A stretch of DNA of 38,136 nt from Actinomycetota bacterium (GTDB lineage: Bacteria; Actinomycetota; Acidimicrobiia; IMCC26256; VFJJ01): NCBI GenBank assembly GCA_009886115.1, contig VFJJ01000115.1:1-38136 (forward strand), given 5' to 3'. This document shows, piece after piece, positions 4,850 through 8,389 of this stretch (within the stretch, counting starts at the first letter, position 1; every line of letters starts with the position of its first letter). Both the position numbers and the translations under genes were made by a program. The notes under the pieces were generated by a model, which made no database searches, had not been told where the DNA came from, and saw only the letters and a program-made list of their open reading frames with translations.

Positions 4850-5221
4850 ATGACGAGCACGAGCGGGTCGACACCGGAGCTGATCGTCTTCCACAACCCC
4901 GGCTGAGGTCAGTCGCGGGGTGTGGTCGACATCCTGAAAGAGCGGGGCATCGAGTTCGGTGTGGTCCAGTACCTGAAGGACGTCCCCGGACGTGAGGTCT
5001 ACGAGCGCATGCTCGATCTGCTGGCTGACCCGCCGGCCGATCTCGTCCGCAAGGACAAGCGCTTCGCTGAGCTGGGCCTGATCGCCGACGATTACACGAC
5101 CCGAGAGTCGGTCGTCGAGCTCCTGCTCGTCCACCCTGAGCTGATGCAGCGTCCCGTCATCTTCCGCGGCGACCGTGCTGTGCTGGCCCGTCCCTCCGAG
5201 AAGGTGCTCGAGCTGTTTTGA
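4850..5221 (+). CDS. arsC: ArsC-type reductase, predicted selenoprotein (Sec19 = TGA 4904-4906)
   Basis: Read through the in-frame TGA at 4904-4906, this gives a 123-residue ArsC/Spx-family protein, close to the family length. The N-terminus ELIVFHNPG-Sec-GQSRG aligns with the family motif HNPxCxxSR, so Sec19 falls exactly on the catalytic cysteine. The three substrate-binding arginines of the E. coli type all have counterparts: Arg67 in LVRKDKRF, Arg101 in MQRPVIF and Arg114 in ARPSE. The family uses glutathione or glutaredoxin to reduce arsenate, though several members have other thiol-redox roles. A stop at TGA would leave an 18-residue peptide. A downstream hairpin (4916-4936) suits a bacterial SECIS. 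Alternatives are a pseudogene or a sequencing error; the intact arginines and hairpin argue against both. Confidence 0.85.
4907..4936 (+). promoter_or_regulatory. putative bacterial SECIS element of the arsC-like gene
   Basis: Just after the TGA, bases 4916-4923 can pair with 4929-4936 as 8 pairs (two of them G-U), leaving the apical loop GGUCG at 4924-4928. The loop begins 18 nt after the last base of the TGA and starts with GG. The E. coli fdhF SECIS also has a GGUC loop, at nearly the same distance. SelB binds such loops to deliver Sec-tRNA. The pairing was found by eye; no folding energy was computed. Confidence 0.6.
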
Positions 5222-7261: not shown

Positions 7262-7816
7262 ATGACTTGGCTTCCTGAGACCGTCGACGGCGACACCGAA
7301 CTCGACCGGGTGTTCGGGCTCCGTCCCGAGCTGTACGCCGAGACGCGAGCCTGGTACGGGCACATCTTCACGCCGCCCGTGTGCGACCCCGTGATCCTCG
7401 AGCTGGTGCGCCTGCGCGTGGCCGAGCTGCACCGCTGCGACTCGGAGCTGGCCATCCGCTACGAGGTGGCGCGATCGGCCGGGCTCGACGACGACAAGGC
7501 CGCGGCCGTGGCCCGCTGGCCCACCGATCCCCGGTTCAGCGAAGCCGAGCGGGCCTGCCTCGCCTTCGCCGAGGCGTTCGTGATCGACGTGCACTCGGTG
7601 ACCGACGCCGACACCGAGGCGGTGCGCCGTCATCTCAGCGATCCCGAGCTCATGGGCCTGTGCAACGCCCTGGCGTGCTACGACGGCTTCATGCGCTTGC
7701 GCATTCTGCTGGGTGTCGGCCCACCGGCGGGCGCTGGCGCCGGTGCCGCCTCCTCAGCCGTCGGCCGTCCGATCTTGGTCGCGACCCCCACGGCCGATGC
7801 CCACACGCTGTTCTGA
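7262..7816 (+). CDS. carboxymuconolactone decarboxylase (CMD/AhpD-like) family protein lacking the second Cys
   Basis: A 184-residue all-helical CMD/AhpD-like protein. The core reads VILELVRLRVAELHRC and continues with DSELAIRYEVARSAGL. In redox-active family members this is a CxxC pair followed by a His; here Cys59 is kept but the second position is Glu62, so the classical disulphide peroxidase chemistry is not possible. The C-terminal half (FSEAERACLAFAEAF, DPELMGLCNALACYDGFMRLR) is the usual second helical segment. The last 30 residues are low-complexity Ala/Gly. The neighbouring downstream gene is a paralogue carrying Cys-x-x-Sec at the same place, so the two may form a hetero-oligomer. 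Confidence 0.8.
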   Translation: MTWLPETVDGDTELDRVFGLRPELYAETRAWYGHIFTPPVCDPVILELVRLRVAELHRCDSELAIRYEVARSAGLDDDKAAAVARWPTDPRFSEAERACLAFAEAFVIDVHSVTDADTEAVRRHLSDPELMGLCNALACYDGFMRLRILLGVGPPAGAGAGAASSAVGRPILVATPTADAHTLF

Positions 7817-7870
7817 GCTACTCGTACCGGTATTCAATCTTTGACTACAGAGTGCCCGTCTGGAGAACCG

Positions 7871-8389
7871 ATGCCCCGTATCTCCCTCCCCGATGTCGAC
7901 AGCGACGATCCCGTCGCTTCGAGCCCGTTGGCCCATCAACCCCAGTTACTGTCCGACTTCATGACCGCGTACGGCACGTTGTGGAGCCACGGCGTGCTCG
8001 ATGGCGCGACCAAGGAGGTGGCTCGTCTCCGCAATGCGAGGGTCACCGACTGCGGTTTCTGAAGGAACGTGCGCTTCGCAGTTGCGAAGCATGAAGGCCT
8101 CACCGAGGACCTCGTCGCCCAGATCGACGACGGCTACGAGGACAGCACGCTTTCGCCCCGTCACAAGGCCGTGCTGCGGTTCTCCGACGCGTTCCTCCGT
8201 GATCCCCACGGGCTCTCGGAGTCGGCCCGAGCGGAGCTCCTCGAGCACTACAGCGCCGAGCAGATCGTCGAGCTCGCGGCGGGTCTGGCCATGTTCATGG
8301 GCACGTCGAAGATCGCCGTGGCCCTCGGCAACGCGCCCTCAGACATGCCCGTGATGGAGCTGCCGACCCCCGTCCGCCCATCGACCTGA
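7871..8389 (+). CDS. CMD/AhpD-like protein, predicted selenoprotein (Sec64 = TGA 8060-8062)
   Basis: Read through the in-frame TGA at 8060-8062, this is a 172-residue CMD-domain protein of normal length. The family core is KEVARLRNARVTDCGF-Sec-RNVRFAVAKHEGL: Cys61 and Sec64 form a CxxU pair where relatives have CxxC, and Glu49 matches the proton-relay Glu of AhpD. The His usually four residues after the second Cys is Arg68. Downstream are LSPRHKAVLRFSDAFL and a Met/Gly-containing last helix, both family-like. The ATG at 7871 follows GGAGAACCG, a good ribosome binding site; TTG 7841 is less likely. The expected role is a thiol/selenol peroxidase or disulphide reductase. A perfect 7-bp hairpin follows the TGA. 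Confidence 0.87.
8063..8090 (+). promoter_or_regulatory. putative bacterial SECIS element of the CMD selenoprotein
   Basis: Bases 8073-8079 (GCUUCGC) pair perfectly with 8084-8090 (GCGAAGC) around the loop AGUU at 8080-8083. The loop starts 18 nt after the last base of the TGA and has G as its second base, as required by the bacterial SECIS consensus. The spacing equals that of the arsC-like hairpin. Found by eye; folding energy not computed. Confidence 0.6.

Follow-up and report, generated by a model that had tools for sequence, protein, structure and literature searches.

A predicted AhpD-fold selenoprotein of the Acidimicrobiia and its conserved upstream paralogue without a CxxC motif

The window, which is the whole stretch of 38,136 nucleotides analyzed here (contig VFJJ01000115.1 of the Actinomycetota assembly GCA_009886115.1), contains a frame for a CMD/AhpD-like protein that is interrupted by one TGA codon. 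This raises the question whether the TGA is a stop, an error or a site of selenocysteine (Sec) insertion, and what the encoded protein would do. The gene has the following features.

7871 to 8389, plus strand: gene of a predicted CMD/AhpD-fold selenoprotein of 172 amino acids with the pattern E49-x11-C61-x2-U64-x3-R68 (sequence, Pfam, alignment, AlphaFold model)
7862 to 7866, plus strand: ribosome binding site GGAGA, five to nine bases 5' of ATG 7871 (sequence)
8051 to 8053, plus strand: codon of the putative resolving Cys, C61 of CxxU (sequence; invariant in the alignment)
8060 to 8062, plus strand: in-frame TGA, read as U64 at the site of the second (peroxidatic) Cys of CxxC (homologue column)
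8073 to 8090, plus strand: predicted bacterial SECIS hairpin of 7 bp, GCUUCGC-AGUU-GCGAAGC (comparison across homologues)

The frame extends from ATG 7871 to a terminal TGA at 8387-8389, with the single internal TGA at 8060-8062, and is translated around U64 as ...RLRNARVTDCGF-U-RNVRFAVAKHEGL... or, over a longer stretch, as ...KEVARLRNARVTDCGF-U-RNVRFAVAKHEGL.... A first, sequence-only reading had described a TGA at the second Cys of the CxxC motif in an otherwise intact 172-residue CMD frame, preceded by a ribosome binding site, and both the sequence and the Pfam assignment agree with this description. The protein matches Pfam CMD (PF02627) with 29.3 bits at a gathering cut-off of 23 and is a member of this family. 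It is also related by sequence to TIGR01926 (peroxidase-related, AhpD-like, COG2128), where it is not filed as a member, its 47 bits (E 2.4e-12) lying under the cut-off of 81.8. Membership in NF053654 (YciW-related (seleno)protein, cut-off 310 bits) was found neither for this protein (38.4 bits) nor for the product of the gene upstream (46.1 bits). The AlphaFold model is of high confidence (pLDDT 93.6, pTM 0.88). Its best fold matches in the PDB are the AhpD-like proteins 3c1l, 2gmy, 2prr, PA0269 and 6k40, and the debrominase Bmp8 (6ohj/6ohi) is a weaker match.

Insertion of Sec requires a dedicated machinery, whose presence had been proposed as a check, and all of its genes were found. One contig of the source genome (5.4 Mb in 224 contigs) harbors selB (320 bits), the adjoining selA (459 bits) and a tRNA-Sec gene (66 bits, anticodon UCA); selD (398 bits) lies on another contig, C57. 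The adjacent selA and selB (L036 6571-9839, L009/L037) lie on contig C73, with the tRNA-Sec gene approximately 32 kb away. Alignment with CMD/AhpD homologues, the other proposed check, gave a U64 column that holds only Sec or Cys. Close homologues occur in 10 other genomes among the 58 of the order, six with TGA at the identical codon and four with Cys. A scan of species genomes yielded 45 loci, all with a TGA or Cys codon at the U64 site, although one of the two search patterns required Cys there, so that a third residue may be under-sampled. These loci belong to Acidimicrobiia, other Actinomycetota (two Yinghuangia species), Myxococcota/Deltaproteobacteria, Gammaproteobacteria, Chloroflexota and Binatota. 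Close pairs of Sec versions have a dN/dS of about 0.1-0.2 in the region 3' of the TGA and no further stop in the frame, which points to purifying selection on this region.

The loop of the hairpin at 8073-8090 begins 18 nt after the UGA and carries a G at its second position. At least six of the seven stem pairs are formed in 25 of 27 distinct Sec homologues and in none of 21 Cys homologues (Fisher 1e-11, a value that overstates the difference because the sequences within both sets are related). Every one of the 23 aligned Sec versions has this G in the loop. The stem survives G-U changes and one double change from C-G to U-A, and stem pairing amounts to 94% compared to 30-53% in slid controls. 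The hairpin is missing from its exact register in two Sec homologues, L060 and L063, the latter having a shifted version. On a tree built without the Sec residue, approximately 3.8 of 4 independent Sec/Cys contrasts on supported branches were as expected and none was opposed; about four such contrasts are too few for significance. One contrast lies within a single genus, where G038 has TGA and the full hairpin, whereas G037 has Cys and the hairpin is absent. Taken by itself, the hairpin does not differ significantly from shuffled sequences (z -1.2 to -1.4), and its difference from synonymously recoded versions of the window gene is weak (P about 0.2). Thus for the hairpin it is the comparison across homologues alone that is decisive. 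A search of the genome with the Rfam model SECIS_1 gave no match, but this model was equally silent in all 14 control genomes and is therefore uninformative.

A second candidate selenoprotein gene is located in the same part of the window.

4850 to 5221, plus strand: predicted ArsC-family selenoprotein with TGA at 4904-4906 in NPG-U-GQS (UxxS) (frame, family profile, hairpin)

It has a SECIS-like hairpin of 8 bp whose loop lies 18 nt after the UGA, just as it does in the CMD gene. With UGQS in an ArsC frame it resembles the Sec arsenate reductases (COG1393/TIGR00014, UxxS) of the set described in 2005, from which it differs in scoring 86.5 bits, short of the TIGR00014 cut-off of 106. The argument that two cases of TGA in place of a redox residue within 4 kb make chance improbable stands, 4850-5221 being the second case. 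A chance origin is rejected because the TGA of the CMD gene is conserved in more than 25 homologues, Sec machinery is present and a SECIS hairpin follows. Three more CMD proteins of the genome likewise have TGA in frame in place of the second Cys codon of CxxC. They are encoded on contigs C9 (L018, 7664-8008, minus strand), C122 (L020, 2690-3196, plus strand) and C23 (L025, 40232-40717, minus strand), with the motifs DCRTU, DCHIU and GCFVU, respectively, and an Arg four residues further on in each.

That the TGA might be a true stop, or a sequencing or assembly error in a Cys gene, leaving a pseudogene or a short peptide, is a concern with a single draft genome of 224 contigs, but the recurrence of TGA at this very codon across many independent genomes, the SECIS element kept in TGA versions only, the purifying selection 3' of the TGA and the complete Sec machinery render it extremely improbable. 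Sec insertion at UGA 8060-8062 is on these comparative grounds very nearly certain. The initial reading of the codon as Sec in a Cys-x-x-Sec motif is thus borne out by the machinery, the Sec and Cys homologues, the SECIS hairpin and the selection after the TGA, and 7871-8389 is practically certain to be a genuine selenoprotein gene, neither a pseudogene nor an error.

AhpD-like CxxU proteins (COG2128/TIGR01926) and CMD-domain CxxU proteins were reported as selenoproteins from the Sargasso Sea in 2005 (PMC1088965), and AhpD-like/CMD CxxU selenoproteins were listed again later (PMC9312934, PMC13188914). Since selenoproteins of both the CxxU AhpD-like and the UxxS ArsC type date back to that time, a point absent from the first reading, the protein of the window belongs to a known kind. 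It shares with this kind the CMD/AhpD fold, the CxxU motif, a bacterial SECIS just after the UGA and widespread Cys homologues. The lineage of the window differs in its score below the TIGR01926 cut-off, in an Arg in place of His137 and in a pseudo-CMD partner.

The active site was compared with the relay of Mycobacterium tuberculosis AhpD, which consists of Glu118, Cys130, His132, Cys133 and His137 (PMC3141380). E49, C61 and U64 align with Glu118, Cys130 and Cys133 and are invariant in the alignment save for the Sec/Cys exchange, so that the pattern Glu-x11-Cys-x2-Cys(Sec) of M. tuberculosis-type AhpD peroxidases is present. The fold and the positions of the Glu and of the CxxC are common to the window protein, M. 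tuberculosis AhpD and Pseudomonas aeruginosa PA0269 (2ijc, 2o4d, 7xw1). The differences from both are Sec for the second Cys, R68 for the proton-relay residue His137 and F63 for His132; two of the five relay residues thus differ, both relay histidines being absent. It had been suggested that the Arg, standing where His is usual, may tune the selenol. The replacement is real; its connection with Sec did not hold. All aligned homologues, whether with Sec or with Cys, have R68, which is therefore a trait of the subfamily that is not linked to Sec.

The gene directly upstream encodes a second protein of this fold.

7262 to 7816, plus strand: partner gene of a CMD-fold paralogue (pseudo-CMD) of 184 amino acids, in which CxxC is replaced by C-D-S-E (Pfam, model, loci)

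The partner protein matches Pfam CMD with 37.6 bits, and its model (pLDDT 84.7) matches AhpD folds, with Bmp8 (6ohj/6ohi) among the matches. None of 45 partners contains a CxxC. Their alignment shows no conserved residue in the Sec/Cys column, where counts refer to the untruncated rows, several partner rows being truncated there. When fused, partner and catalytic sequences were aligned jointly, the partners fell on the catalytic half. In 44 of the 45 loci, which cover several phyla, the catalytic gene is immediately preceded by the partner. The stop of the partner and the start of the catalytic gene overlap as ATGA in 22 loci and touch in five more. In three loci both are fused into one reading frame, namely in two cultured Yinghuangia species (L047, L048) and in L054; the fusion L047, at 1455-2492, is that of Yinghuangia soli. 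When the partner was searched independently, it was matched in eight of the 58 genomes of the order, with the catalytic gene adjacent in all eight; at E 1e-15 no partner match was found in genomes of the order without the catalytic gene. A second pair of like make-up is present on contig C9 of the same genome, where the Sec-type copy L018 has a pseudo-CMD partner upstream.

Could the upstream gene be a mere tandem duplicate, functionally unlinked to the selenoprotein? A gap of 54 nt separates the two genes in the window, with no overlap, and one locus (L080) has no recognizable partner. However, these two observations stand against the adjacency in all other loci over several phyla, the ATGA overlaps, the three fusions, the lack of partner matches in genomes of the order without the catalytic gene and the fact that the partner is always without CxxC, yet keeps its fold. 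An unlinked duplicate is accordingly improbable, whereas a functional tie between the selenoprotein and its upstream partner is, as judged from the gene arrangement, very likely. The comparison of loci indicates that 7871-8389 is the second, catalytic half of a conserved two-gene unit with 7262-7816, a pairing that the first reading had missed. The near-universal adjacency, the start-stop overlaps and the natural fusions suggest that the partner and the Sec protein probably form a hetero-oligomer.

A distant pair was observed on plasmid pJCM12687 of Mycobacterium branderi (L089 2501-3483), where a partner and a CQYC protein overlap by ATGA in the order SDR-partner-catalytic-SDR-P450 and are annotated as two hypothetical proteins. 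A match on a Novosphingobium plasmid was rejected as a pair, a single gene having been matched twice.

AhpD-like proteins fused into dimers, in which the N-terminal domain has no cysteines and the C-terminal domain carries CxxC, are known from the bacteria Corynebacterium ureicelerivorans and Comamonas aquatica (PMC11429811). In its anatomy, as seen in the adjacency and the three fusions, the unit described here resembles these dimers and the Sestrins in having one inactive and one active AhpD-like domain, and the inactive-first order of the bacterial dimers is that of the fusions L047, L048 and L054. Sestrins begin with the redox-active domain and carry a DDYDY hinge (PMC11429811). In contrast to the fused dimers and Sestrins, the lineage of the window mostly has separate, apparently translationally coupled genes, and its active half frequently contains Sec. 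Literature searches for a CMD pseudoenzyme pair and for selenoproteins of Acidimicrobiia found nothing relevant, and the two-gene, Sec-containing version appears to be undescribed in the literature searched.

The distribution of Sec and Cys within the unit was analyzed on the tree. Parsimony requires 6-7 Sec/Cys changes, at least two of which are forced by well-supported branches, and a single origin of the Sec forms as one clade was rejected (p-AU 8e-4). This comparison indicates repeated exchange between Sec and Cys at the U64 site. The idea that the Cys form marks genomes without Sec machinery was also rejected. Three of the four genomes of the order with the Cys form (G036, G037 and G044) keep selA and tRNA-Sec, and only G052 is without selA and without a tRNA-Sec above the cut-off; therefore Cys does not arise simply through loss of the Sec machinery.

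Taken together, 7871-8389 with practical certainty encodes an AhpD-fold selenoprotein, which would most likely act as a small selenol/thiol peroxidase or reductase together with an inactive CMD paralogue. According to the comparative data, SelB, aided by the hairpin at 8073-8090, would bring Sec-tRNA(UCA) to UGA 8060-8062 and Sec would be placed at the peroxidatic position of C61-x-x-U64. There U64 may attack a hydroperoxide or another electrophilic substrate, and C61 may resolve the intermediate to a selenylsulfide. By analogy with M. tuberculosis AhpD, a thioredoxin-like reductant (dithiol donor) would then reduce the selenylsulfide. The partner 7262-7816 might supply a scaffold or a substrate-binding or regulatory surface within the putative hetero-oligomer.

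A peroxidase rather than another redox reaction has even to slightly better than even chances. The CxxU protein could instead serve as a redox enzyme in one particular pathway, catabolic or biosynthetic, and not as a general peroxidase, which would leave its reading as a selenoprotein unchanged. Examples would be a reductive dehalogenation as in Bmp8, or a reductase or isomerase for CoA-linked or P450-derived intermediates. In five related genomes (G034, G036, G037, G038 and G042) the pair shares its region with a selection of genes for a family III (CaiB-type) CoA-transferase, an AMP-binding ligase, an SDR and a P450, gene families having been checked for part of the genes per genome. The same five regions contain a third CMD protein, whose own state at this site, Sec or Cys, varies without regard to that of the pair. 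The pair of M. branderi is likewise flanked by SDR and P450 genes, the catalytic and the partner folds both match the CMD-family debrominase Bmp8, and the bmp8 gene cluster includes a P450 (PMC7918430). Such P450, SDR, CoA-transferase and acyl-CoA-ligase neighbors in relatives could indicate a specific metabolic reaction and not peroxide defence. However, the neighbors in the window differ from that cluster, antioxidant and peroxidase-related fold matches outscore Bmp8, and CxxU with the conserved Glu is the arrangement of AhpD peroxidases. A pathway-specific role is thus a serious possibility, though judged the less probable one. Such regions of related genomes (L102, L103, L104, L105 and L106) contain, besides the CMD pair, genes for CoA-transferase III, an APH-like kinase, an AMP-binding ligase, SDR and P450 as well as a further CxxU/CxxC CMD protein.

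As a tentative and less probable reading, the two genes may encode an obligate heteromer of a seleno-enzyme and a pseudo-enzyme, a bacterial two-gene counterpart of the Sestrin-type pair. The inactive subunit would bind or sense a specific lipid- or P450-derived substrate and guide the Sec subunit towards it, with the use of Sec or Cys following the redox demand.

The gene adds a well-supported AhpD-like selenoprotein lineage in the Acidimicrobiia. Beyond the known kind of selenoprotein, it brings a conserved inactive partner and a repeated exchange of Sec and Cys. As this exchange is not simply due to loss of the machinery, the lineage is useful for asking when Sec repays its cost. The conserved inactive partner, encoded by an overlapping or fused gene, offers a simple bacterial system for the role of pseudo-AhpD domains, and what these domains do is a question shared with the Sestrins.
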